NCBI GenBank assembly: GCA_018398765.1
Contig: JAHBMJ010005514.1
Coordinates: 1-24,578, forward strand
DNA length: 24,578 nt
Direction of reading: 5' to 3'
DNA from: Chromera velia
Taxonomy: Eukaryota > Sar > Chromeraceae
The notes beneath the pieces are model-generated. The model worked only from the letters and a program-made list of their open reading frames with translations. It searched no databases and was not told where the DNA came from. Below are positions 4,210 to 24,395 of the stretch, one piece after another (within the stretch, counting starts at the first letter, position 1; the number at the start of each line of letters is the position of its first letter). The translations under genes and the position numbers were made by a program.

Positions 4210-4494
4210 CACAAAGCCACAGAGCGACCGACGAAGCAAGCACAAAGCCACAAAGCAACCGACGGAGCAGGCACAATGCCACAGAGCGACCGACGAAACA
4301 TGCGCAAGCACAAAGCATCACAAAGCACCACAAAGCCACAAAGCAACCAACGGAGCAGGCACAAAGCCACAGAGCGACCGACGAAGCAAGCACAAAGCCA
4401 CAAAGCGACCGACGGAGCAGGCACAAAGCCACAAAGCGACCGACGGAGCAAATACAGGGCAACCCACGGAGCAGGCACAAAGCCACAAGCGCCG
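4210..4494. repeat. 31-bp minisatellite, about nine copies
   Basis: A tandem repeat with period 31 bp has units beginning CACAAAGCCAC at 4210, 4241, 4272, 4309, 4329, 4360, 4391 and 4422, with degenerate or truncated units at 4453 and 4476. Two unit types are visible, ending CGACGAAGCAAG and CGACGGAGCAGG, partly alternating. One unit has an insertion near 4295-4308 and one interval is shortened to 20 bp. Open frames on both strands (for example a Cys/Leu/Val-rich - strand frame, 4047-4532) follow from the repeat and are not called as genes. Confidence 0.9.
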
Positions 4495-7589: not shown

Positions 7590-9080
7590 CAGCAGGAGCC
7601 CGATCCCCCCCAGAGATACTGGTACCAGCTCTGGTATGCGGATAACGCGTCCAATACCGGCTGCTTGCACCAGCTGCGAACATGGCTACGCGAGTTAGTC
7701 AAAAGGGGGCCTGCAGCAGGGTATGTAGTGGAGGTACACAAGTTGATCCTTACAGTGCTCCCGCAATTTATGTAGAAAGCCAAGAAGATTTTTGCAGAGT
7801 TCCCCGACCTGCAGATAGTAGAGGGGACGCGTCTCCTAGGGGGGCACGTAGGCACGGACACACACAGAGAGAAATAGGTGCAGGAGAAGGTGAAGGAGTG
7901 GGCTAGAAACGTGGAGAGAGTCACAACAGCAGCAGAATGTGCCCCACACGAAGCATACACAGCCTGTTCCAAATCCCTGCAACATGAATGGAAGTTTGTG
8001 GCGCGGGTAGTGCCAGGGGCGAGAGGACAGATGGGGTAGCTGGAAGGCATGATCAGAGACTGCTTTATCCCCGCCTTGATAAAAAGACGATGGAACGGAG
8101 GGCCCCCCATCCAGCACGATGTGTGGCTGAGAGACGTTGCCGCCCTCCCGGTCCGACTGTTAGGCCTAGGCATCCCCAAACCCACCGAAACAGCAGACAA
8201 GGACTACAAGACCTCAACCGCAGCCAGTAAAGCGATCACAGAGGCCATCCTTCGCAGAGAGGACATAGACGCAGACGAGCACGTGAAAAGGGGGCAGAAG
8301 GCACGGGCAGCCCACAAAAAAGCAGTAAAAGAAGCAGTAGAGAAGGAGTGGGAGAAGTTAGGCAGCCAGTCAGGGCAGGCAGCTAGTGAGGACTAGTATG
8401 AGGAAGTCAGGCAGTCAAAAAAAAAGAGGTAGTCAGGATGGCTGACGGCCACCCCCCTGAAGGAACACGGAATGAATCTTAGCCTAGACAAATTCCGGGA
8501 TGCGATGACAATCCGATATCAGGGGAGGGTAGAGGGGGAGAAGAGCAAATGTGAGGGATATGGGGGAAGGTGGAGTCTATAACACGCCCTTAACTGCCCA
8601 GTAGGGGGATTGCCCATGCTGCGACATGACGAAGTCAACCGCACATAGGCGAGTCTAGCAGTGGAAGCATACTTCATAGGAGCAGTTCATGCAAAAGAGC
8701 CGATCATTAGGGAGGAAGGGGAGGTGCAGGGATGTCTGGCGCTAAGGGGGGACTGTCAAGTCCGGGGGGCCTATGTTCCACAGAGGCTGGCAATTTTCGA
8801 TACCAGGGTGATAAACCCATACACCGCCTCGAGGAAGAAGGTGACCTGGACTCAAGCCCTCAAAGCAGCAGCAGAAGAAAAGAAGAGGAAACATGGGCAG
8901 GCAAGTGCGGACAGAGGGTACGACTTCACCCCACTCGTGAGTGCAGTCGACAGGACGATGGAGGGGGAGGCTAAGATGTTCTTGAAGAGGATAACACGTG
9001 AGCAAGACATGCGGCCGGATCTGAGCCTGACTGCAGATTGCCCACCTAAAAGCAGCAAGCGCATGTATTCGGGGGACTAG
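7590..9080 (+). pseudogene. decayed retroelement ORF: reverse transcriptase C-terminal half plus downstream domain
   Basis: One frame (codons starting at positions divisible by 3) can be read from about 7590 to the stop at 9078. It contains, in order: a reverse-transcriptase active-site box as YADN (7635-7646; family form YADD); the following GP..GY.VE segment; RLLGGHVG; a thumb-like LPVRLLGLGIPKP; then HALNCPVGGLPMLRHDE preceded by one or two Cys (zinc-finger-like); and a C-terminal block with IFDTRV, EEKKRK and FTPLVSAV. I know this order from RT-bearing elements of protists and marine invertebrates, probably non-LTR; the exact clade is uncertain. Internal stops are TAG at 7773, 7875, 8037, 8394, 8430 and 8646, and TAA at 8580, with no frameshift, so it is inactive. 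The 5' half with fingers/palm motifs is absent or unrecognisable. A MITE lies just downstream. Confidence 0.85.
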
Positions 9081-10276: not shown

Positions 10277-12440
10277 TTAATCTTCTTCCTCTAGCAAATC
10301 CTCATCTTCATCTTTTTTTTCTTCTTCTAAATTTTGTGGACCTTCACTTCCTCCTTCTTCGTCCTCTTCTTGTCCCTTCTCTGCATCCTCCTCCTCCTGA
10401 CTTTCGCCTGCCAGCTCCTCTCCCCCTCCCCCCTCTCCCTCTTCTTCCTCGTCGTCGTCATCCTCAATGACGCGAATGCCTGACAGCCTGGAGCCCCTGC
10501 CTCCCCCTCCCCGCCTCCTGGATCTCTGACTAGACACAGACATGCAACTCGATCTGCCCCCCCCACCTCTTCTACTGAGGGGCATCGCCTCAGCCTCGGC
10601 CTCGTCCTCTTCTTCTTCCAAATCTTCAACATTCAATCCACGCATAACCTCGGAAGGCTCAGCAGAATTCCCGGCGAGGTTGTTGTTCACATCGGCGGCC
10701 CCGCTCTCTTGGGCACGCGCACGGGTGACTCTCTGGGGCGCCGGGCGGGGTTGACGTTGCCCCCCTCTGCCTCTCATTCCACCTCCACCTCCTCTTGCTA
10801 CCCTCCCTGCCTGACTCCTTCTCTGCCGCCCTCCTGCCCTTCCATTGGCCTGCCCTGGGTCTGCCTCCTCTTCTTCCTCCTCACCCTCTTCTTCTTCCTC
10901 TTCCTCTGCCTCCTCTCCCTTTTGCCGCTGCTGCTGTTGGCGGGAACGTCTAGCGGAGGGGTCAGGGGGGCGGTAGAGAAGGGGCTCTAGTCTTCTCGCC
11001 AGGCGAGAAGGGAGGATGGAGTCGTTCAGCACGCACAGCGCGAGCCTGTCCAATTCAATCTCGGGCCAGAGTTTGGATCTGTCCTCTTTCTCTGCTGCTG
11101 TGAGGAGCCCAGTCGAGGCTCTCCTGTTCTTCCCCCCTCCCCCCATCTTGGCAGCAGTGCCTGTGCGGGTCCTCCCGAGAGAAGCCTTGGGGACCTCTGC
11201 GGTCGATGCTGCTGCTACTGTCGAGGCCACACTGCTGCCGGGTGCAAATGTGGAGGCAGTGAGGGTGTCAGGAGGTTCAGAGAACCAGGGAAGGTCGACA
11301 GGGGAGACGGCGGAATCTGCAAAGTCTGGATCCCTTCGGAGACCCGCCACGTTGGCTGTTGTGGGGTATCGGGAGATTCTGTATCGGAGGGCGAAGTCAA
11401 TGAGGAAAAGAACGTGCGCAAACGCATGGGGGGAGAGGGAAGCTCGAGCCCACAGTGCCTCGTCTGGCATCACGAAGTCTCTGCTCATTTGAGAGCACAG
11501 AGACCGACGCACTTCTTCGAGAAGCGACCGAAGACAACCCTGAAGGCCTTCACTTAGGAAATTAGAGGGCAAGGGGAAAAATTGAGGAAAGGGGGACCGG
11601 TAGGAAACAGCAGCAGAAGCACTGACGTCCTCCATTTGCGAATCGCCTCCCTCCCCTTCCTCTGGAGAAGCAGCAGACTTTTGTTCGACTTCCCTTTCAG
11701 AAACCGAAAAGCGGCTTCCTCTGTGGGTCAATTTTTGTTCCTCCTCATCCTCCTCATCTTCTTTTGTTGGAACGTCCTTAGCGTCGGATTCGGAGCGAAG
11801 AGAAACGGAAAGACTGGACACCTTGAACCGTTCTCCCCCTTCTTCCCTGAAGGCAAAGGGATTTGAGAACATTCTCCGTAGCACGCCGATCACATCCGCT
11901 CTTTCTGCTTCCATCTTTACATCTCTCTCCCTCTCTCTCTGAGAGGCATCCTGAAGGCCGGGTGGGGAATCGGCCTGCTCTTGCGTCTCCCCTACCAGAG
12001 TGCTGGGTTGAGGTTGAGACATGGGGGATGGGCAAGGAGACGGGGATGGAGACGGCGAACGGTCGTTGGAGTTACACCTGCCTGACGGGGCCGCGCCTGA
12101 TTGAGGCACTTCTGCTATCACCTCGCCCCCCTTCCCTTCCTTCTCCTTCTTTTGTTTGTCTTTGCCTTCATGAGCCTCGATGGCCTCTTGCAAGAGGGCC
12201 TCCCTCTCTTGCACAGAGGGCGCAACTCGCAAAACCATCTGAATGAACTCACGCACCCCCCCCTCCCCCTCATGCTGATTCCCTGTCGTCCCCTCCGGCC
12301 CCCCTTTGTCCTCATTTCCCTTTCCATTCGGAGGCCCCCTTCCTCTGCTGGTTCTTCTCGAGGGTGACAGGGGAGGCGGAGGGTCCAGAGGGAGAAGCAC
12401 AGAGGGCCGGTATCTCTTGGAGGACAGAACGGCCTCCATC
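10277..12440 (-). CDS. exon B: terminal exon with C-terminal helical domain, RGG box and acidic tail
   Basis: Acceptor CTGTGTGCAG; the first base completes a Trp codon with exon C. The exon encodes 720 residues and TAA. Disordered Glu/Ser sequence is followed by an ordered segment (EGLQGCLRSLLEEVRRSL; WARASLSPHAFAHVLFLID; ALRYRISRYP) reminiscent of the C-terminal helical region of WSTF/RLT-type proteins, and by an IELDRLALCVLNDSILPSRL helix. It ends with an RGG box (GGGGGMRGRGGQ) and an acidic tail. An in-frame ATG (12437-12439) follows the acceptor, but it is internal in this model. Confidence 0.8.
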
Positions 12441-15400
12441 CTGCACACAGGCAGGCAATTCATTCTCCTCAGAAGCAGACACAGGGAAAACATCTAGCAC
12501 CATACACCACAAGATTCGAAAATGGGGAAGAAGAAAAGAAGGCATCAACGCTGGACTGTAAAAGCGCAGAAACTGTTTTCAAGAAAAGCAGCGGTTAAAA
12601 AAGTGGTTGAAGTGGGGGAGGAAAAAAAAGAGCCTGTATGTGCGGATCAGATGCGAAAGAGGGGCCGTCAAAGCGTCAAACTTCAATTTCGTTTCGTCAA
12701 CCTCCCGTTTTCATATCCGAACGTGAAGGAGGAAGACATTTTGCTCTCTTTTCCACGTGTACAGACCTAGGTGCCCCCATCATCATGCAGATAATTATTG
12801 TGGCTGTCGACTGACCATTCCTTCCTCTCTTCGTCTCTCCAAGTGCTGCCCGTCGCCTGCTTCCTCTTTGAGACAGAGGAGGAGGACCCTCCTGTTTTCC
12901 ACGTAATCTGCCCCCCCGCTCCCGCTGCAGCGACACCAATCTCGAGGAGCAAACAACGCATCCGAAAGAACAATAAAACCTCGGGGGCACTGCTCACTTC
13001 ACTGCCTACCCTGCTTCCACTTCTTTTCTCCATACCGAAACGTTCGGACGGAAAAAGCAATTCTGGTTCTTGTTCATCATCATCAGACCTCATCGTCTGC
13101 TCTCGTTGGAATTTCTCCAACACACGGCGACGAATCAGAACCAATTTGGATCGTTCGTTTCTGTTCAGAAAGAGGAAGGCACGAGTCAGCGTGGAGAACA
13201 CCCCAGCGCGGGGCAGCGGAAAAAGCTGACGGACTGGACGGAGAAGGAGAGCCTGTGCATGTTCCCTCTCTCTCTCATCAAAATTCTCTTCCCTCTTCCC
13301 CCCCTCTATTTCTTCCCGCATTTCCCTCTCCACCCCACACCACCGGGAAATCATATCTTCCTGTGAGATTAACATCTGCCTCGAATGCCTCGGACTAGGC
13401 CCTGAGGAGCATACGGGATGAGTCAGACAAAAGTCAGGGACGATCGACACAACACCACCAGCCTCGGCAGGTACACCCAGGCCGGGGCGGCGCCATTGCG
13501 GCGGCGGCCAGAGAAAGTCTGGCACTTTCGGTTCTTTTCTCTGCAAATGGAGGAGAGGTAAAGCGTGTGCATCCCCAAACACCCACGGCTCTTCAGCCCG
13601 ACTCCTTTCTGCTTGGACTTTTATCTGCTGCAGCTGCTTTACTCTCGGGGAACGGGAAGAAAAGATTTCGGGCCCCCGTCCCCTCCCCCCCCTCCCCCTC
13701 CCACGAGCAACCCATGCACCCCGGTAAGGATGGTGGGTGGCAGGCTGCACTGCGGGTGTGCGTCGGGACGCTGTGTGTGCCCCTGCCTGTGTTGCTGCTG
13801 CGACCACAGCCAGCCGCAGCGCCGCAGCGTCACTCGTGAGGGGCTTCAGGGACAGCTTGTCAAAAAGACCTAAAGGCCCGCTGAGGGAACACGTGAATTG
13901 GGAGACACGGCGGGTCAGTCCCTCGAGAAGAATTCTCTCACTTTCGTTTTGACGTGAAAGGCCCTGTGATATCAGAGCTACCAGGTTAGACGGAGGCGTG
14001 GGTGGGAGACGATTCGTAGAACGGCTACTGCTAGGGGATACTTTCGATCTTCCCCCCACCGCCTTCTTCCCTGTGTTTGTGTAAAATGACCAGCTTCTGC
14101 GAGCTCCATTTTCCCCTCCACCTTCGTCCTCCTCACCCCCCTGTTGAACCCCCCCACGCCCACGACGAGAGCCGATGCCTGGCAAGACGAGGGACTCTCC
14201 TGGGTCTGCTTCTTCCACTTTCACTCTCATGCGACTCCGCAAGCCCATTCTCATTCTCCTCAGCTGGCTGCTGTCCTCCGCTTGCTCTGCTGACTCTCTT
14301 TCTCTTTGTGTTCCTCTCATCCCCATGGTTGGCGACTGGTGCACGCCTTTTTCTAAAAGCCTGCGAGAATCGGGGGGCGAGAGGAAGGAGGATGAGTGCA
14401 AAGGAGCCCGGGATGAGCTCGGTTCTCTCTTCACTTTCTTTGTCGCATCTTCTCTCTCCATATCGTTTTCTCCATTCTCACCCTCTCGCTCAAACTCCCC
14501 CCCACGCTCTACAGGCCATACAGGCACCCCTGACAGAGTCGCGGAATCACCCCCGAAGTCAGACACATCACAGAAACGACGCACAAGGCTCCAAGGATCT
14601 TTCCGGAGCTCCTGCGCCTCCTCATCTGTCCATCCCACTGCGGCTTCCACACACTTCTCTAGAGAAGGGTGGAGAGGAAGAAGAAGATCCTTCTCCTTCT
14701 CCTCCCCTTTCTCCTTCCTCTCTTCAACCTCCATCCTCCCCTCTGTCTCCACTAATCCCTCCCCCTCCCTGTCCCTGAATCTCAACCAATGTCGCCTCTC
14801 TTCTGCTGCCTCCAGTGCGATCTTTGCAACGGCCCGAGCCAGAGGGTCTCTGAGGACTGCCTCAGGGTCGACCAGCCGGTGTTCGAGGAAGAGGAGGTCG
14901 GGGTCGAGACGGGACTGCCAGAAGGCGTCTCCCCTCCTGTCTCTGCCCAGAGGCTGCCACTCTGTCTCGGCCTCAGCCTCCAATAAGGGGAGAAACCGAC
15001 GCTGCACGCAGGCTCCCCCCCACAAGATGCATGCAGACACTTGCACATAACTGTACACACACAAAGAAAGACGTAAAAAGGAGAAGGAAGGCAAGTGAGG
15101 AGGTGAGGAAGCGGAGGAACAGACATGCAGTGAGGATCAACCGGGAAGACGAACAACAACAATGTAGAGAGAAGAGAAGTGCAAAGCCTGACCAGAGTCT
15201 TGGTCGAGAGTGTGAGAAAGGCCAAAATCAGAAACAAACTGAGAGACAAAAACCTAGCGAAAACCACAGCAAGACATCATCGCCATGCAGACCGACATAG
15301 TGTCCTCACTTCACTTCACTCACAATTGCAAAAACTCGGCATTTCGCGTCCACGTACTCGCTCACTCTCGCGTGGTACTCTTGGAGCGTCTCCAGTTCTG

Positions 15401-15610
15401 CATTGACGCACGCAAAGAAAGATGTAGACAGAAGAAGTCGTGAGAACAGAACAGTCTGTGAGGTCTGCGAAAGGAAGAGAAACAGGGACAAGAAAGACAG
15501 AGACAAAAAAACAAGAAGAGAAATACGATGAGATAGAGAAAAAGGAGATGGACACAAGTAGCAAACAAAGAAATTCACCAACGGGTTTATGAGCACGCCC
15601 TTAATGAACG

Positions 15611-15652
<42 letters not shown>

Positions 15653-16482
15653 CCAACCATCTTCATCTTCCAGCCTCTTCCTTCCCTTGTCGTAGAGAAT
15701 CGCGAAGGTGGGTGCGCGTCCCGAAACCCTTAGATTCATCAGCTTCTTCAAGTGACGGTCTGCTTCCATCCTCTCTGCCTCTTCTCTCGCCTCATCTTCG
15801 TCTTTGTCCCCTGCTTTCTCGGCCTCTCCCTCCCCTTCTCCCCCCTCCGTCTCCTTCTCGCTCGGATTTCTGATGGCAAAACGGCGTCTGTCAATCTTCA
15901 GAGACAACACAGAGGAGGGGAAAGGAGCTGCACGAGGACCAAATAAGGCGTCCCTCAAAACTTGCACCTGCGCTTCCTTCTCCCCATCGTGACTCGAAGA
16001 GGAGGGGGAAGACGAAGGTAGGAGCTCCGCTGTCTTCTTTCCACCCACTGCCTTCCATTTTTTTCCTCCAGGAGGAGGAGCGAGAGGCTCCAGTTCTGAA
16101 GCATCATCGGCTGGGGGGCTCTCCTCTTTTTGAACTCCGACTTGTCCCTCCATAGAGTCCTTTTTCCCCTTCTTGCCCTCCCCCTGTTCCCTGATCACCT
16201 CTCCCTCCTTCTTACCCTCCCCCTTCTTTCGTCCCCCCTTCCTCTCCCCAGCAGCAGAATCGGCTGGCAACTTCAGAAGAGCGCGTGCACTCTCGACAGA
16301 CGTTTCCCAAGAGTGAAGTATCAGAGCGTCCTTCTCCTCCTCATTGCCTTCCTCTTCTCCAGCTTCACCCGCCTCCTTGCCCGCAGCCGCAGCAGGTTTT
16401 CGGATGGTCATGGCTTGTCGGAGCTCTTCGAACCCGAGGCGCTTGAACAGAGGAAGAATCAACTCAGACTGCACCACACACA

Positions 16483-16544
<62 letters not shown>

Positions 16545-19500
16545 TTGAAAGACAGACTGACAGAGAGACAGACACCAGAGAACTTCCCCGCATTAACACA
16601 TTGCCCCAGACAACCCCCCCCCTTTTTGCACCCCTTGACAAAAAAGAAAGAAAACCTTCCTTTCATCGACGAGACTCCCTCCATCTTGAGGGCACCCCAT
16701 GCACGCGCTCTCTCAACGCCCCCGCCTTCCTCCCTCCGTCCTCACCCCGCCCCCCTCCGATGCACATCCCACACCCAATCCACTCACTCACTCACTCATT
16801 CACGCATGCACGCACTCACTCACTCTCTCACTCACTCACTCTTGCGTTCATGATCTTGGGTTCCAGCACGTCTCTCATTCTCGTTTCCTCTGCCTGCACG
16901 ATCTGCAAGAATAAAAAGAAAGAAAGAAAGAAAGAAAGAAAGAGAAAGAACATAGGGAGAGGAAGGAACACGGACGTAGGAGGTTCCCCCGTCCTTCCGT
17001 ACGCAAAACTGTAGTAGAAGACCTCACACCTCGAGCAAAAAGAAAAGCCTCGCCTCGGAAAGGACAGAAAGAAGAACTACGAAGAGAAGGAAAAAACAAC
17101 AGGGAAGAGAAGCGAAGGGAAGGACATTGCTGGACTAAGCAGGGAAGGCGATGACGTGCAAAGCGCTGACTACCGAATTCATTTTTTGTATCGACACCCG
17201 CGCACGTACGTCTTCTTCAAGGAAGCCAGAGAGAGACCGAAAGCCAGCGCATGAATGAAAGATAAATGGTGCACAAAGCCTGAGCGAGCGAGTCCTCTCA
17301 GGGAAGGGAAGGATTTTTTTACGAAGAAATCGACCTCAAACTTACGCACTCATGGATTATCTACCTATTCCCCTGCTGCCTGACCTTTCTTAAGGACCGG
17401 AGCCGTGTTTGTTGAAAGCTCATCAGCGCTCTGCGCACACAAACAAAAGAAGCAAATGATTTGAACAATCGTTCCGCCCGACTCGTTAAGTCCACTCGCG
17501 TGGGCAGTCAGTCTGAGTCGCTCTTTCCCGACTGGGAACTTCACACACCTACAAACAGTCTGTCTGACTTCTGCTAAAAAAGCATAGCCGCGGATGCAAT
17601 ATGTCGTAGGCAGGCAAGCTTGCAGTACGACAAATCAAAGACACAAACCCTCCCTCATTCAGAGAAGTATTGAAAGGGGGTCTCTTCTCTCTTCAAAGAC
17701 CGTAGAACGAAAGACGATGCCAAAATGCAAACCCAACGTCGCCCCCCCCCCCCCAATGATTTTCCCAGAAAGAAGCTGAGGCTCTCTCTTTCTTTTCTGA
17801 AGCAAACTCACTCACTGGTACTTTCCTTGCTTCCAGTCTGTCTTTAAGATTGGCGGGGGGCTGACCTGAATACCGGTGTCTCCACACAGATCTCCACGAG
17901 AGCGGAGAGAAGAACGAGACGATCAGACCCGGAGAGACCCAAAAACCCCGAACCTTCAGAAGACTCCAATTTCCGAATCACCTCCCGAATCGGTTTCTTC
18001 TGCATGAAGCAAAGGGAACAAAGAAGGACATATTAACTAACACCACACAAGCAGAACGGCAAAAGAATTAAACGGGTTTGTGGACTATGTAAAATCAGCC
18101 TCTTAAACTATTTGTGTTCATCATTTTCATTCATTCTGTCGTTTGCTCTTGTATCGTAATTTCCGATTGATCTTCAGGTGCTTGACACTTAAGCGTCTGT
18201 ACCCTTTGCCTTCGAGGGTGAAAGGAGACAATTCAGGCAGAAGACAAACAGAGTATACATTCCTCCCTTCTCCCCCCGTTTTTTCCCCCACACACAAGGT
18301 GGCACCTACAGTACCACTCACTCACTCACTCACTCACTCACTCACTCAGTCCTTCACTCCCTCACTCACTCACTCAGTCCCTCACTCCCTCACTCACTCC
18401 CTCACTCACTCACTCACTCACTCACTCCCTCACTCCCTCACTCACTCGCTCACTCACTCAGTCCCTCACTGACAGACAGACTGACGTCTTCAAGAAGCAC
18501 ATCGTCTCTCTCGAGGAAGTGATCGATGGTCTGCATGCATGGATGCATGGATGCAGGGTTGAGTGAGTGCATCACTCAGTCAGTCAGGCAGGAAGCACAG
18601 AGACAGCATGCAGGCAAAGACATGGTCGAAAAGAGGAACGGAAACAGATAAATGGACAGAATCCAGAAAGTACTCAGGATCGGAGTGAGCAAAACTCAAA
18701 AGAGAAACGCGATGACGTTGCCTAACCAGACAGAAGAAGCTGCACTTCTCTGCTCTGAAACTCCAAAAGAATAAAGAGGCGTTTTGTCATTTCAGTCGCC
18801 TTCAAGTTTTGGGTCTTTTGAACCCCTCAGAAAGCAAAAAAAAAATTCCTACCCCCAATTCCAAAAAGCAAAGCAAACTCTGACGGACATCCGCAGCTTC
18901 AAATGGCCAAGTCAAAGGGTTCAACGGCCGGATGGCGAATGCATCGTACTCGTTGAATCTGCGCGCACGTCGAGAGAGAAGAGGCGAACCGGTGCCGCGA
19001 GAAAGATTGGAGACAGAGAGAGAAACAGAAATCCATAGACGCACATCTATGCAACATTGAACATGATCAGCGAACTGAAACAGATTTCCACTTCCCGATT
19101 TAAAAAGAGCGGATGCTCTCCCTCTCCCTCGTTGACTGTTCGTATGCCTTCCCCCCCCCGCCCCGCCCCCAAACTTCCGCGTCCTCTGAGCTACCTTCCT
19201 TTAGACGCAGCTCGGAGGAGACAGATAACCGTCCAGTGAAACAGAGGAGGGTCGGAGTTCTGCACACGAAGAGGGAAACCCGACAAGAGAATCAAAGAGT
19301 GCAGGGGAGGATCTGAAATCGGCACAAAAAAACAAAATGCATCATGCAGAAACGGACTACAAGAAGCGTCTCCACGCGATTCATTAAGTGGATACAATAA
19401 AAAAAAAAGGTTGCAGAGGTGTACACGAAAGGAAACAAAGAGAGATGACATTGTTGCGTTATGCTTTCTCTCTCGCACCCCATTTCCGTTTTTTATCCCA

Positions 19501-22500
19501 GCTTCAGTCCCCTACTCACCATCTCCCCCTCTCGCCTTCCCCCTTTCCCCCCTCCTTCTCCACCGTCCCCCCCCCCAACCCCAACCCAGTCTAGAAGAAT
19601 CCTCAGACTAGGAGGGGGGACACCCATCAAGACGCGAGAGGTTATCGAGAGGAAGTCAGCAACTCGGAGCAGGTCAGAAACTTGCTGCATGCAGAGATCA
19701 GAAGAGGAACACAAACAAAAAGGGAGGGAACGTTCGAAAGCCTATCTATGTTCATGCATGCGGGAGGGAAACTACAGAAAGAAAAAAGTTTCCTTCGTCA
19801 TCCCGATGACATACGCCATTGGCCTTTCTCTCTTTCTTTCCTGCTGTTTTGCTTTCTTTGCCTTCTGTATTTGTGGGCAAACAAACAGGCGAATGGGAGC
19901 GGGGGAGGAAAGGAGGAAAAGGAGGGGGGCGCCAAAAAAGTGACAAACGTGATGTGGACACAAACAAGCATCATGATGATTGAATCCTCTCACTCGAGAC
20001 TCACCCGTGAGTCGACCGGAAGGGGGTCAGAGGGTGGAAGTCTGAGAGGGGTTATTGCGAGTGGGGAATCTTTAGTTCCACTCTCTTCCTCCTTCACCCC
20101 CTCTCCCGAAATGTCATTTCGCTTCCGTTTGCCCCCCCCCTTTCTACTCGGATCGGTGCCTACTTCTTCCTTCACTGCCTTTTTCTTTTTTCTACTCACA
20201 CCCAAGCATCCTTCGCCCCCTTCTTCTTCATCCTGCTCATTGTCCATCCCCAACGGTCGTTTTCGTTTCTTTTTTTGAAGAAGAACTGAAGAAGCGACTA
20301 CACCTGCACCTGCAGCTGCAGATGCACCGAAGTGGGATTCTCTCCTCTTGCTCAAGGGGACGCCATCTCCGTCACTCTCTGCCTCTTCTTCGCTTTGACT
20401 ATCCACACACACCAAAGGAGGCGGCGCGCTGCCTGTAGGTGCCCACCGACCGCCCGACTTTGCCTTAGCAGAAACACCCCCCCGTCTCCTCTTCTGCCCC
20501 CCTCTCCCTCTCTTTTCCAGTCCGAGAGCTTTGAGTTCTCTTTCTCTTTCTTCATTTTCGCGTGCGTCGTCGCTGCCGATTTCGGCCAGAAGATCCGCAG
20601 TCTCGTCTTTGTCTTTGAATTCCCCCTCTTCTCCTGCCCCCGCCTTTTCGGATGATCGGCCCTTCCCTCTCCCCCCTCTCATGCCCCCGCCCCCACGCCC
20701 CCCCCGTCCCCCCATCCCGCCCCTTCTCTTCGGGGGCACGGCCGCCATCATGTCATTGGCCGCCACATACACAGGCTGCCCGTCTTGTTGCGACGCCGAC
20801 CCCTGTGCTTGTGCAGCGGGTATCCACATAGGTCGCTCCATAAACCCAGCAGGAGCAGGAGCGGGAGCGGCGGGCACCAGTGTCGGGCCACCGGCCGAGG
20901 GGTAAAGCGCCCCCACATGAGGGGGGAACGCCCCTCCCCCCCCGGGTGGTGCACTCATCTGCATCATGTGTGCAGGCGGATGTTGCTGCATGGCTGCTGC
21001 TGCTGCTGCTGGGTGTTGGAGGAGGAAGGGGGGGGGAATCCCCTGATGGGGTTGGGCGAGAATGGGGAAAAGGGGAAAGGAGCCGGGGGGGCATGCGGGA
21101 AACATCATGGGGTTGTTTGGGAAGGGAGGAGGGGGGAGTTGTACTGGGTGTGCTGCAGATAGGGAGGACGAAGTGGACCCCAGAAGAGGATTCTGCGCAG
21201 TGGCATCGGAAGGTCTCTCGCCTTCCTCCGTCTCTGCACTCTTCTCTCCAGCTTCTATCTTGACTTCTGCCCACGTCTCGCCCTTAGTTTCCCTTTCCCC
21301 TTCCTCTTGCATCCGTTGGAGATTCAAAAGAGGAATGGAGGCATGGGGCAGAAAGGTGGAGTACACATGGCGTAGGGTGTTCAGAAAAGGGTCTCGAGGT
21401 TCGGGTAGATCTTTCCAAGATCGTGCGTCTGGGTGTGTCTCTCCTGGCTGTGGCTGAAATCCGGGGGGGATGCCTCCGTCTCTGTGTTGGGAGATCTCTA
21501 TGCGAGGAAGAGGGCGTGGGTAAGAAGAAAAATTGCCCCCATGCGGAAAGAGAAAACCCATCTGGGCAAGGGGAGGGGAGACGGGGGGAGGGGGTGACAC
21601 CATACGGTGGTGTCTAGGGTCAAAACAAAGAGAGGCGTTCTCTCCTCCCACTGGCACATCGCCTCCTTGTTTCTCTCCATATGCTCCTGCTCCTGTCTCC
21701 TCTGGCATCATGGGGTTCGATTCCGCACCCTTCTTCTTCCTCGACATGGTCGTTAACTTCGATTGGCTTCGAGCAGATTGGCTCGTGGGGGTGGGCACGC
21801 AGGATGAAGGTCTCGAAAGTTCGTTGCCTCGTCTGCTGCTGTACGGAGGGAGAACGTTTTCGGTTTTGGGGATTTTTTCCTTCAACACTTGATCCCATCT
21901 GCGTGTGATGCGCATGCTGAATGCCTCAGGGGTCGGGGGGATGGCCAACAGATTCTTCAACTCCTCCTCTGAAGGGGAGGTATGGGAGGTCCCGTCAGGC
22001 TGATTTGTGGGTTTATTTGGTTGGAGGAGTGAGGAATCACAAACGTGCCTTTCTTTGATGAGGGCGGTCAGAGAGGCCTGGTGGGTTTGTTTGAGAAAAG
22101 AGAGAAGCTGTTCATCCTTCTTCACCAGCTGCTCCTGTGGAGATGAGGAGGACCGACTGCTTCTCTTCTTCAATCGATGGGAAACAAAGGCGATGCGTCG
22201 TCGAGTCTCGAAGAGGCCCAGAAAAAGAGAGCACAGTCGAGAGAGAGACTCACAAATTTTTGTTGACAAATCATGACCCTCGCCGTCCCCCCCCGTTAGA
22301 GGAAGGGGAACGCCAACGGGGGTAAAAAAAGGGATCCGCGGATCCATTTCGGAGCACTGCCACTGGGCCCATGCAGATGCAGATGCTGTGGGGTCCTCCG
22401 AAGGACTTGCCGCAGGAGGAAAGGGGGGGTCCCCGATCCACGAAACCATACTGGGGGCTTCCTCTTCTTTTTCTTTCTGTCCTTTCTCTTCCTCTTTCTC

Positions 22501-22772
22501 GTGATTCATATCCCCCGTCTTTCCTTCCTTGTCCCTCTCTGCATTCTCTCCGGTCTCTTCGGCCTTCTCTTTGCGTTGAGCATCTTGCACCATTGCGCGC
22601 AGATAGAGATCTTCTGCTATCAGCTTCGACACTTTTCGTTTCAAGCAGAAGGGCAGACTCCGGAGGTAGGACCGGACAGACAGAGGGAGACACTGAAGAA
22701 TTTCCCAACGCTCACGCCCGGTCAGATCTGAAAAGGAAGCCAGCCGAGTCTGCACACGCATGCGCGCGCGCG

Positions 22773-22821
<49 letters not shown>

Positions 22822-23420
22822 CGTCAAAGGCCAAAAGGAACCCATGTCGATGCACAATTTTCATACGTCACGCTAACCACATGCAGAAAGAGACAGAGAG
22901 AGAGAGAGAGAGCGGGGGAAGGGGAGAGAGAGAGAGATGCCGCAAAGCCGGAAGAAAAACAGCAACTGTTTGGAGTGATGATGCGCGGTCTGTTCTGGAA
23001 GCGGAAGGCAAAGTGCCTGTGCATGGTCTTCTTCAGAGGGTGACATTCAACACCACAAACACCAAACGAAAAAGACAGAAAGGACCGTGAAGATTCCCTT
23101 CCTGATGCCTCAAATCCATCTGCCACCGTCCACACCCTTACACCCCCACGTCACTGACCTCTATCGGGAGTGTCTCTATGGCTTCTTTCAGTTCTCTCGG
23201 AGTGCTCCTCTCAGAGTTCCCCTCTGTTCCATTCTGCTGCTGCCCAGAAGCAGAGGAGGAAGAAGAGAGGGGCGCATCCCTACTTCTGTCCCCTTCCCCC
23301 CCTGTCTTCCCTCCTCCCTTCTCCATCCCCTCACCTTGCCCCCCCTCTTCCTCCCTGTCAGAAGGGCCACCGAGACTTTCTGGGTACTCCCAGACAGGCC
23401 TCATGGGAAAGCCGCGAACG
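10277..23420 (-). CDS. large DDT-WHIM chromatin-remodelling subunit (ACF1/WSTF/RLT-like), 12 exons, 5' end incomplete
   Basis: Join on the - strand, 5'->3': 23420-23159, 22749-20005, 19684-19520, 19259-19195, 18958-18853, 17999-17866, 17430-17385, 16902-16840, 16468-15658, 15397-15324, 15001-12816, 12440-10277. All 11 junctions agree in phase and the sum gives 2,939 codons plus TAA. Numbering from the first full codon: residues 1-1002 are mostly disordered; a DDT-like domain is at about 1003-1120 (DFLSITSRVLMGVP, NPLTWPFEAADVRQSL); a WHIM1-like helical region at about 1130-1195 (SDRLVLLSALVEICVETP); a WHIM2 motif LGRDRRGDAFW at about 1508-1518. In characterised proteins DDT-WHIM modules bind the ISWI ATPase and linker DNA/nucleosome spacing machinery, so a nuclear nucleosome-spacing role is inferred. 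No PHD finger or bromodomain is seen in the window. The start codon lies beyond the duplicated region or outside the window. Confidence 0.8.
12441..12815 (-). other. intron C-B
   Basis: The 375-nt phase-2 intron runs from GTCAGT to a pyrimidine-rich end CTGTGTGCAG. An 82-codon + strand open frame inside it (12522-12770, Lys/Arg-rich) has no recognisable feature and is not called. Confidence 0.7.
12816..15001 (-). CDS. exon C: WHIM2 motif and long linker
   Basis: Acceptor GCGTGCAG, donor GAATG|GTCAGT; phase 0 to phase 2. Near its start is EWQPLGRDRRGDAFW, matching the WHIM2/WSD signature 'PLGrDR.G..YW', followed by a DPDLLFLEH strand-like segment and a helix. Then comes charged linker, an ordered patch (LVALISQGLSRQNESERILL), an RGG-type patch GRGRGGRGRG, and further helical segments (REMREEIEG; RNERSKLVLIRRRVLEKFQR). 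Upstream in-frame residues before 15001 belong to the intron. Confidence 0.82.
15002..15323 (-). other. intron D-C
   Basis: The 322-nt phase-0 intron has donor GTGAGTGAAGTGAAGTG (a repeat-like donor) and acceptor GCGTGCAG. Nothing else was seen. Confidence 0.7.
15324..15397 (-). CDS. exon D of the DDT-WHIM gene (74 nt)
   Basis: Acceptor CAATGCAG, donor CAATT|GTGAGT. The phase-1 start completes a Glu codon with exon E and the end is phase 0. It encodes LETLQEYHARVSEYVDAKCR, a likely helix just upstream of WHIM2. Confidence 0.75.
15614..15651. repeat. (GA)n microsatellite next to the exon E donor
   Basis: It lies six bases inside the intron that follows exon E; on the sense strand it reads (CT)n immediately after GTTGGT. 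Confidence 0.9.
15658..16468 (-). CDS. exon E of the DDT-WHIM gene (270 codons)
   Basis: The acceptor GGTGCAG follows a (CT)n(GT)n compound microsatellite; the donor is GATG|GTTGGT. Phase 0 to phase 1. It starts with a helical LILPLFKRLGFEELRQAM, then Glu/Gly/Lys-rich disordered sequence, then a more ordered end (LKIDRRRFAIRNP; HLKKLMNLRVSGRAPTFAIL). This forms the long spacer between WHIM1 and WHIM2. Frames running into the flanking (GA)n and (CA)n repeats are intronic. Confidence 0.78.
16475..16544. repeat. (CA)n(GA)n microsatellite forming the exon E acceptor tract
   Basis: On the sense (-) strand this reads (CT)n then (GT)n and ends GGTGCAG at the exon E boundary, so it takes the place of a polypyrimidine tract. 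Confidence 0.9.
16783..16948. repeat. (CTCA)n and (AAAG)n repeats flanking exon F
   Basis: The CTCA repeat (16783-16840) supplies the donor of exon F as (GTGA)n on the sense strand. The AAAG repeat (about 16917-16944) supplies its pyrimidine tract as (CTTT)n. Confidence 0.85.
16840..16902 (-). CDS. exon F: helical linker after WHIM1 (63 nt)
   Basis: The acceptor is TTCTTGCAG after a (CTTT)n tract, the donor AGA|GTGAGTGAGTGAG. Phase 0-0, 21 codons: IVQAEETRMRDVLEPKIMNA, a charged helix. The donor lies at the edge of a GTGA tetranucleotide repeat, so several identical GTGAGT sites follow in the intron. Confidence 0.72.
16949..17384 (-). other. intron I-F, remainder
   Basis: This is the remainder of the phase-0 intron that spans 16903-17384. 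No further exon, gene or repeat was seen. Confidence 0.6.
17385..17430 (-). CDS. exon I: WHIM1 continuation (46-nt micro-exon)
   Basis: Acceptor GTGTGCGCAG, donor AAAG|GTCAGG. The phase-2 start completes an Arg codon with exon J and the end is phase 0. It encodes ALMSFQQTRLRSLRK, a basic helix continuing the WHIM1 region. The size is small, but phase and context agree on both sides. Confidence 0.7.
17431..17865 (-). other. intron J-I
   Basis: The phase-2 intron spans 17431-17865, donor GTCAGC. It contains a poly(C) run near 17745 and a decoy exon-like stretch (see rejected items). Confidence 0.65.
17866..17999 (-). CDS. exon J: WHIM1-like region
   Basis: Acceptor CTTCATGCAG is preceded by a T-rich tract and a TTAGTTAAT branch-like site. 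Donor TTCAG|GTCAGC ends the exon in phase 2; it starts in phase 0. It encodes KKPIREVIRKLES, then SDRLVLLSALVEICVETPVF, the 'Kl.lL..L.d..l.t' pattern of WHIM1 that follows DDT in ISWI partners. Confidence 0.8.
18000..18852 (-). other. intron K-J
   Basis: The 853-nt phase-0 intron runs from GTAGGA to CTTCATGCAG. Its main content is the ACTC repeat array (18316-18470) and a GCATGGAT-type short repeat near 18533-18556. No additional exon is needed, since K and J join in phase. Confidence 0.65.
18316..18470. repeat. interrupted (ACTC)n array, about 155 bp
   Basis: Tetranucleotide ACTC units are interspersed with ACTCCCTC and AGTCCCTC variants. On the sense strand of the surrounding gene it reads GAGTGAGT, giving many perfect GTGAGT sites. 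Confidence 0.9.
18853..18958 (-). CDS. exon K: end of the DDT domain
   Basis: Acceptor GCGCGCAG, donor GGGG|GTAGGA; phase 2 to phase 0, 106 nt. It encodes NPLTWPFEAADVRQSL, closely resembling the 'lNplTWpE.lRq.L' signature that closes the DDT region in plant RLT and animal BAZ proteins. This is one of the two strongest family clues in the gene. Confidence 0.78.
19195..19259 (-). CDS. exon L: DDT domain, third-helix region
   Basis: The acceptor is CGTGTGCAG after a pyrimidine tract and the donor is GGAAG|GTAGCT. The 65 nt start in phase 0 and end in phase 2. The sequence PPLFHWTVICLLRAASKG resembles the 'L..lh..LLra' helix of DDT domains. An upstream AG at about 19309 was considered, but its frame does not join exon M. 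Confidence 0.72.
19520..19684 (-). CDS. exon M: start of the DDT domain
   Basis: Acceptor GCATGCAG and donor GATG|GTGAGT frame a phase 0-0 exon of 55 codons. The segment SDLLRVADFLSITSRVL, then PPPSLRILLDWV, fits the first helices of the DDT domain (consensus of the type LL.vweFL..F...L.l.....le.L). A Gly/Glu/Lys-rich insertion follows at the 3' end, which is unusual inside this domain. Confidence 0.78.
20005..22749 (-). CDS. exon G of the DDT-WHIM gene (915 codons)
   Basis: The acceptor is GTGTGCAG after a (CT)n(GT)n tract and the donor is CGG|GTGAGT; both are phase 0 and the length is exactly 915 codons. The N-terminal about 50 residues look folded (DLTGRERWEILQCLPLSVRS and a following helix) but match no family I can name. 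The rest is long disordered sequence: Lys/Glu-rich, then Pro/Ala/Met/His-rich with an HPAAAAAAMQQHPP stretch (around 21000), an RGG patch (about 20660-20740), several KKRKR-type basic clusters, and a Glu/Lys-rich end. Reading on past the donor hits TGA at once. The frame extends upstream through the microsatellite only by accident. Confidence 0.8.
22750..23158 (-). other. intron H-G with compound microsatellites
   Basis: The 409-nt phase-0 intron runs from GTCAGT to GTGTGCAG. It includes the alternating CG/CA/GA tract at 22762-22819 adjoining the acceptor (CT, then GT, then GC on the sense strand) and more GA repeats at 22887-22938. Confidence 0.75.
23159..23420 (-). CDS. exon H of the DDT-WHIM gene
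   Basis: Acceptor GCTGCAG precedes 23420 and donor GAG|GTCAGT follows 23159. It starts in phase 2 and ends in phase 0, compatible with exon G. The 262 nt encode 87 full codons: a VRGFPMRPVWEYPESLGG start, then Glu/Gly/Ser-rich disordered sequence, then a possible amphipathic helix (RELKEAIETLPIE). An almost identical copy lies at 23825-24086. Because 262 is not a multiple of 3, only one copy can be used in a continuous frame. Confidence 0.7.
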
Positions 23421-23608
23421 CTGCAGCAACGCAAAAGACAGGGAGATACCAAAATGTTAGAAGCCCTTTTTTTCCCATCAAAGTTGAAGGAAAGATCAAC
23501 CACGCACGCCTCAGGTTATGCACACAGAAGACTAGTGGTGTGACAACGAAAAGAAAAGCCTCCCTCCCTCTGTTAGAGAGTACCAAAAAACGAAAACACA
23601 CTCACCCA

Positions 23609-23645
<37 letters not shown>

Positions 23646-23824
23646 CAGCCCACGACGGTTGCATCAATCAATCAGTTTCCATCCACATCCCCCCCCCCTA
23701 GTTTTCTTTCTGTNAACACCACAAACACCAAACGAAAAAGACAGAAAGGACCGTGAAGATTCCCTTCCTGATGCCTCAAATCCATCTGCCACCGTCCACA
23801 CCCTTACACCCCCACGTCACTGAC

Positions 23825-24086
23825 CTCTATCGGGAGTGTCTCTATGGCTTCTTTCAGTTCTCTCGGAGTGCTCCTCTCAGAGTTCCCCTCTGTTCCATTC
23901 TGCTGCTGCCCAGAAGCAGAGGAGGAAGAAGAGAGGGGCGCATCCCTACTTCTGTCCCCTTCCCCCCCTGTCTTCCCTCCTCCCTTCTCCATCCCCTCAC
24001 CTTGCCCCCCCTCTTCCTCCCTGTCAGAAGGGCCACCGAGACTTTCTGGGTACTCCCAGACAGGCCTCATGGGAAAGCCGCGAACG
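23825..24086 (-). CDS. second copy of exon H (probably an assembly duplicate)
   Basis: It has the same acceptor, donor and coding sequence as 23159-23420. If both copies were spliced in, the phase-0 end of this one would meet the phase-2 start of the other and break the frame, so at most one is used. Confidence 0.5.
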
Positions 24087-24274
24087 CTGCAGCAACGCAA
24101 AAGACAGGGAGATACCAAAATGTTAGAAGCCCTTTTTTTCCCATCAAAGTTGAAGGAAAGATCAACCACGCACGCCTCAGGTTATGCACACAGAAGACTA
24201 GTGGTGTGACAACGAAAAGAAAAGCCTCCCTCCCTCTGTTAGAGAGTACCAAAAAACGAAAACACACTCACCCA

Positions 24275-24327
<53 letters not shown>

Positions 24328-24395
24328 CAGCCCACGACGGTTGCATCAATCAATCAGTTTCCATCCACATCCCCCCCCCCTAGTTTTCTTTCTGT

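Follow-up and report, generated by a model that had tools for sequence, protein, structure and literature searches.

The window, the whole stretch of 24,578 bases analysed here, comprises the first bases of a 70,357-base scaffold of Chromera velia, and its minus strand carries a large multi-exon gene. We rebuilt 13 exons from position 23420 down to 10277, joined across 12 GT..AG introns of 236–486 bases into 2,954 residues, with all junction phases compatible and no internal stop. Exon 1 (23159–23420; acceptor ctgcag, donor gtcagt) is followed by exon 2 (20005–22749), which contributes 915 codons of a compositionally biased N-terminal tract without a Pfam match. Exon 3 encodes two DDT-like helices recognized by pattern (19583–19684, residues 1003–1036) and a Gly/Glu insertion (19520–19582, residues 1037–1057), and exon 4 (19195–19259) would provide a third DDT-like helix, assigned from position and pattern. 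Exon 5 (18853–18958), without a Pfam match, carries the block NPLTWPFEAADVRQSL at 18921–18871. Exon 6 (18486–18530) is a 45-nt exon of phase 0/0, and exon 7 (17866–17999) encodes the putative WHIM1 domain, the final residues of which lie in exon 8 (17385–17430). After exon 9 (16840–16902), exon 10 (15658–16468) encodes a charged spacer between WHIM1 and WHIM2, and exon 11 (15324–15397) the stretch ahead of WHIM2. Exon 12 (12816–15001; 728 open codons) houses both candidate halves of the WHIM2/WSD domain, and exon 13 (10277–12440; 720 open codons) encodes the C-terminal tract with its acidic tail and the stop. Low-complexity or compositionally biased tracts flank the DDT/WHIM region of the protein. 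An array of CACTCACT occupies 18315–18470, inside the intron that separates exon 6 from exon 7.

In outline, this locus is a genuine gene. The long exons 2, 12 and 13 are strongly supported and the short exons less so: with a codon-usage score trained on the three long exons, the modelled frame was the best of six in 6 of the remaining 10 exons and was not favoured in exons 4, 5, 9 and 11. Each of the 13 modelled acceptors has (T/C)GCAG at its end, a look that partly guided the choice of splice sites, and GCAG also ends 7 of the 8 acceptors used in C1211, another gene of this genome. An alternative exon 11/12 junction (AA/gtgagg with tgtacag/T), which adds approximately 20 residues, was rejected in favour of a GCAG acceptor, as in the other introns of the model. 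A preliminary description of this DNA had counted 12 exons and 2,939 codons. Its multi-exon minus-strand frame, with junctions in phase and no stop, is upheld, whereas the number of exons is 13; because 2,954 minus 15 is exactly 2,939, the 45-nt exon 6 was apparently missing from that model. The same description called the protein very large, a relative term for a 5'-truncated product of 2,954 residues, as large DDT proteins are known. BPTF, one such protein, has approximately 3,000 residues and is thus close in size; unlike BPTF-like proteins, the present one gave no Pfam match to a PHD finger or bromodomain in exons 1, 2, 10, 12 and 13 or in joined segments covering exons 3–11.

The gene model is 5'-incomplete. 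Exon 1 opens at an acceptor (ctgcag/C, 23420) in a phase that demands another exon, its first base completing the codon of an unmodelled upstream exon, and the gene therefore starts further upstream. A plausible fitting exon end (..AACTCAG/gtgggt) is present at the very end of the window. Beyond the window edge, the scaffold reads N for approximately 4.8 kb, and long plus-strand open frames begin past the N run. The exon 1 region is also duplicated: a second minus-strand copy at 23715–24395 is identical to 23049–23713 at all 665 aligned bases. The copies differ by one 16-base (GT)n length and are joined by a single N at 23714. This duplication is most likely an assembly artefact, that is, an unmerged overlap; two exon 1 copies in succession would break the reading phase, and the duplication could mislead gene prediction.

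At the 3' end, exon 13 is linked to exon 12 by a putative gtcagt..gtgcag intron and likely belongs to the same transcript. The locus could also be read as two adjacent genes, one consisting of exons 1–12 with a stop just past 12816 and the other of exon 13 from an ATG at 12439, since the frame of exon 12 continues beyond the donor but soon meets a stop, ending at 12770, and exon 13 opens with G/ATG. However, the donor and acceptor match in phase, as they do at the remaining junctions, and the two genes would be separated by only approximately 330 bases. We consider this division unlikely; it would be compatible with the functional interpretation preferred below.

Elsewhere in the window, two plus-strand frames, at 273–1610 (446 codons, Ser/Pro/Glu-rich) and 2080–2985 (302 codons, with a long acidic run), were unmatched by Pfam, as were short plus-strand open frames at 7646–9077, which may resemble a non-LTR reverse transcriptase tail. 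A minisatellite with a 31-base unit in approximately eight copies is located at 4210–4451. Elsewhere in the genome, a 414-codon frame that appears ankyrin-repeat-like by eye was seen on the minus strand of L015 (G000:C3756) at approximately 35.6–36.9 kb.

The domain searches employed 24,736 Pfam models, with cut-offs of 19.1 bits for WHIM1 and 25.4 bits for WSD. Single exons gave no result with Pfam and NCBIfam. With a 101-residue query, WHIM1 scored 19.5 bits (E 0.00073), over its cut-off, and it was the sole Pfam match of the 248-residue DDT–WHIM1 segment at 18.2 bits (E 0.0019), under the cut-off. The match places residues 1144–1177 on profile positions 12–45 of 46. The preliminary description, which had staked its assignment on a match to the DDT or WHIM families, thus narrowly survived, with WHIM1 E-values of 0.0007–0.002. 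Genome-wide scans covered 177.8 Mb in 4,040 contigs, and the six-frame scan yielded two WHIM1 matches at E≤10: the window exon (E 0.377; 18.3 bits, or 20.2 bits when its frame neighbours are counted) and a frame of 40 codons at C2034, which scored higher (20.8 bits, E 0.065) and is probably a chance match. Because this chance-like match outscores the window exon in the scan, WHIM1 by itself is indecisive. Two of the 14 bacterial control genomes also contained a WHIM1 match, in both cases under the cut-off. C1211, a clear in-genome relative, scores just 21.3 bits for WHIM1, and the model is therefore insensitive in this genome. When compared with C1211, the WHIM1 score was reached by 8 of 1,000 shuffles (35 of 1,000 on a wider segment); against C747, another relative, it was reached by 200 of 2,000. 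In a sliding comparison along the window protein, the WHIM1 of C1211 scored best at the expected place.

WHIM1 (residues 1144–1177) precedes, in one reading frame, a weak WHIM2 call at residues 1519–1546 (14879–14962), a stretch that contains PLGRDRRGDAFW and retains the GRD of the GxD signature. The residues named in the preliminary description, including LGRDRRGDAFW, are all present in our model and in the order claimed. A 36-residue cut around LGRDRRGDAFW had WSD as its only Pfam match (profile positions 2–29, 14.6 bits, E 0.037, under the cut-off), and the same stretch in the two clear WSD genes of the genome scored 25.5 and 21.6 bits. Longer cuts of 96, 125, 241 and 728 residues gave no WSD match with Pfam, and the six-frame genome scan for WSD at E≤10 identified five places, none of them within the window. 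The pattern PLGxDR....(F/Y)W is common to the window protein and C1211.

The candidate second half of WSD is located at residues ~1808–1870 (13907–14095), 273 residues past the first half, and was unmatched by Pfam on its own in both of two queries. Joined to the first half, it raised the WSD score to 17.9 bits with one insertion excised and to 23.8 bits (E 5.1e-5, below the 25.4-bit cut-off) with two. This E-value is flattering, as the second half was picked by eye before scoring, and the excision places were also chosen by eye; eight comparison joins (seven controls and one with exon 13) gave 12.8–15.6 bits, without equal freedom to trim. A different candidate for the second half, in exon 13, scored 53 points against C1211, a value reached by 45 of 3,000 shuffles against the whole protein, and was ruled out because the WSD score did not rise when it was joined (13.6 bits). 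The score of the first half was reached by 69 of 1,000 shuffles against C1211 and 49 of 2,000 against C747, and that of the second half by 30 and 117 of 2,000, respectively. In the sliding comparison, the first half of the C1211 WHIM2 tied for best at the expected place, and the first half from C747 and both second halves scored best elsewhere along the window protein.

Because the C2034 match outscores the window WHIM1 and the 96-residue WHIM2 query was empty, weight must be given to the possibility that compositionally biased exons of an unrelated protein resemble WHIM1 and WHIM2 by chance. Every score is near or below threshold, much of the protein is biased in composition, and C2034 is an example, elsewhere in the genome, of a similarly scoring WHIM1 match that looks like chance. 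Nevertheless, two separate segments, the second of them shortened, each matched solely the expected family among 24,736 models and did so in the expected order, and we regard a coincidence of this kind as quite improbable. As WHIM1 and WSD are the sole Pfam matches of these segments, we retain the DDT/WHIM class for this protein, an assignment that appears to hold weakly and is partly supported.

DDT itself, a three-helix domain of approximately 60 residues, was undetected in the window by Pfam in the exon, joined-segment and genome-scan searches. Of the three domains named in the preliminary description, WHIM1 was recovered near its cut-off and WSD under its cut-off, whereas DDT was not. The block NPLTWPFEAADVRQSL (residues 1092–1108) had been presented as the DDT signature, but this placement is probably wrong: the block follows the three-helix DDT-like region and precedes WHIM1, and it probably represents the DDT–WHIM1 linker. 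Judging from pattern and spacing, the DDT-like helices would instead correspond to residues 1003–1036 and 1058–1078, one to two exons upstream. The Gly/Glu insertion reported inside DDT was found again, at residues 1037–1057 between these helices. Between the pattern-based DDT-like region and WHIM1, the start of which is extrapolated, lie ~54 residues, a gap nearly identical to the 55 residues between DDT (604–668) and WHIM1 (724–773) given for human BAZ1B (PMC8536118). The DDT-like segment of exon 3 was compared with C747, and its score was reached by 20 of 2,000 shuffles on a narrow segment and 728 of 2,000 on a wider one; in the sliding comparison, the DDT and LTW queries from C747 scored best elsewhere along the window protein. 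LTW-like blocks seen by eye in C1211 and C747 were unsupported by shuffles, which reached the score of the LTW block in 563 of 1,000 and 942 of 2,000 cases against these two relatives. Weak DDT places were found elsewhere in the genome at C3334 (18 bits) and C557 (16.9 bits), both under the cut-off.

The two relatives provide a scale for these scores. C1211 (L016 5100–9901; G000:C1211), with WSD at 5.8e-11 and WHIM1 at 2.1e-4, is a clear member of the class and perhaps the main ACF1/Itc1-like subunit of the genome. C747 (L033 6720–9340; G000:C747) is a second WSD gene (2.9e-8), in which 66 profile positions of the match are spread over 254 residues; it first surfaced as two collinear weak WSD exon matches, and its WSD halves are ~190 residues apart. 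The C747 segment, whose DDT is presumed by eye, had no Pfam match to DDT or WHIM1. The DDT-like exon of C747, as seen by eye, begins directly after an acceptor, as does that of the window gene. The results for C1211 and C747 imply that near-threshold or missing scores are normal here even for clear WSD genes. The window gene would share with C1211 the combination of WHIM1 with a candidate WSD, and with C747 a long insertion inside WSD, and its introns, like those of C1211, mostly end in GCAG; in contrast, the clear WSD scores are theirs, and the distance between WHIM1 and WHIM2 landmarks is 198 residues in C1211 and 367 in the window gene. The control pair C1211–C747, for which 0 and 16 of 2,000 shuffles reached the scores of the two WSD halves, also outperformed the pairs involving the window protein. 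The shuffle tests of the window protein against C1211 and C747 are weak, in part negative, and the assignment does not depend on them. A further weak WSD place was found at C3306 (17.5 bits).

Since the clearer genes C1211 and C747 could serve ISWI, the window gene might be a decayed or repurposed relative that has lost the pocket, no longer binds ISWI and acts only as a disordered chromatin scaffold. The undetected DDT, the Gly/Glu insertion interrupting the DDT-like region, and a WSD that is under the cut-off and apparently interrupted by 273 residues would fit such a history. However, the frame is open across 2,954 codons, the PLGxDR....(F/Y)W pattern shared with C1211 has been retained, and C747, a clear WSD gene, likewise has a long WSD insertion. 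Decay or repurposing to this extent is decidedly unlikely.

The genome also encodes a candidate motor. Judging from its domains, C2648 is an ISWI-type ATPase with SLIDE: it matched the SNF2 domain at 2.4e-17, SLIDE at 1.1e-10 and a Myb/SANT-like domain at 4.7e-4, the last under the cut-off. Its SNF2 part had 36 PDB sequence matches at E≤1e-10, the first eight of which are chains named ISWI, ISW1 or SMARCA-type and, in one case, 'chromatin-remodeling complex ATPase-like protein', with CHD and others ranking after them. At E≤0.01, its SLIDE exon had two PDB matches, a SMARCA-type chain and the 'ISWI PROTEIN' 1ofc. HAND was unmatched anywhere in the genome in a search that was also silent in the controls. 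Putative ISWI ATPases have been counted elsewhere by the presence of SLIDE and helicase domains (PMC4751559).

Taken together, our preferred reading, to which we assign a probability of about 0.7, is that the window gene encodes a third ISWI accessory subunit that has diverged strongly, with a proposed DDT/WHIM pocket for SLIDE and tether-like flanks. The DDT-like, WHIM1 and WHIM2 helices would together form a pocket that holds on to SLIDE in the ISWI ATPase and also contacts linker DNA; by analogy, the window protein would hold ISWI via residues ~1003–1215 and 1485–1870. The long low-complexity flanks, flexible and charged, would serve as tethers to DNA, nucleosomes or recruiting factors and would in this way determine the place and manner of nucleosome sliding by the motor. 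The pocket and its SLIDE contact are taken from work on other species: in AlphaFold 3 models of Itc1–Isw2 and ACF, DDT, WHIM1 and WHIM2 are described as touching the SLIDE tip (PMC12093815), and a review gives a similar description of BAZ1B (PMC8536118). By this analogy, the window protein may bind ISWI and contact DNA, and its flanks may act as tethers. Structure models predicted from the single sequence for two exon pieces were uninformative (mean pLDDT 47.5 and 50.6) and too poor for structure searches. PDB sequence searches returned three matches for the DDT–WHIM1 region (best E 0.0016, repeat proteins, none passing alone), six for the WHIM2 region (best E 0.029, ISWI partners absent) and one for the WSD region of C1211 (E 0.85).

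Compared with Itc1/ACF1 (BAZ1A) and BAZ1B/WSTF, the window protein would have the same order of DDT-like region, WHIM1 and WHIM2, and, in its pattern-based DDT, the near-identical spacing to WHIM1 seen against BAZ1B (~54 versus 55 residues). A long stretch ahead of DDT is also common to them according to the published descriptions (PMC8536118, PMC12093815) and amounts to ~1,000 residues here. In contrast, the WHIM1–WHIM2 spacer is ~340 residues long, as opposed to 125 in the description of BAZ1B (PMC8536118); the linker of Itc1 is described as disordered (PMC12093815). Furthermore, WSD is apparently split, ~1,400 residues follow the first half of WHIM2, and PHD finger, bromodomain and WAC were not found in the 5'-truncated model. 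WAC gave no match at E≤1 in a genome scan that ignores introns, and the 5' end of the gene, as noted, is missing.

In Paramecium, ICOPa and ICOPb, which are also very divergent alveolate proteins, are reported to give nothing with HMMER/Pfam and a remote WSD (HHpred 91.68%, E 0.35) as the sole domain detected, and to bind ISWI1 (PMC11789628); remote similarity can therefore accompany real function in alveolates. The ICOPs are far smaller than the window protein, at ~93–95 kDa (PMC11789628). By contrast, the ISWI partners of Trypanosoma brucei are described as not being homologues of known partners (PMC4646403).

On this reading, the window gene adds one more member, large, eroded and fast-diverging, to a known class. 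ISWI partners help to decide where nucleosomes are slid, and our literature search, of incomplete coverage, turned up no account of DDT/WHIM ISWI subunits in chromerids. For Plasmodium, one account states that the autoregulatory and substrate-binding domains of Snf2L are not conserved and that orthologues of the characteristic ISWI-type subunits were not identified (PMC11946908). A tentative and rather doubtful scenario is that the alga keeps at least three DDT/WHIM ISWI subunits together with a SLIDE-bearing ISWI, whereas on the way to parasitism Plasmodium lost the pocket and its target together, or changed them beyond recognition, with the window gene serving as a bridge sequence. If this is true, the window gene, being near the detection limit, would help to find a hidden parasite counterpart. 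The alga, with an ISWI of conventional appearance, two WSD genes that are clear and a third that is eroded, would supply intermediates for asking whether the parasite partners have been lost or disguised.
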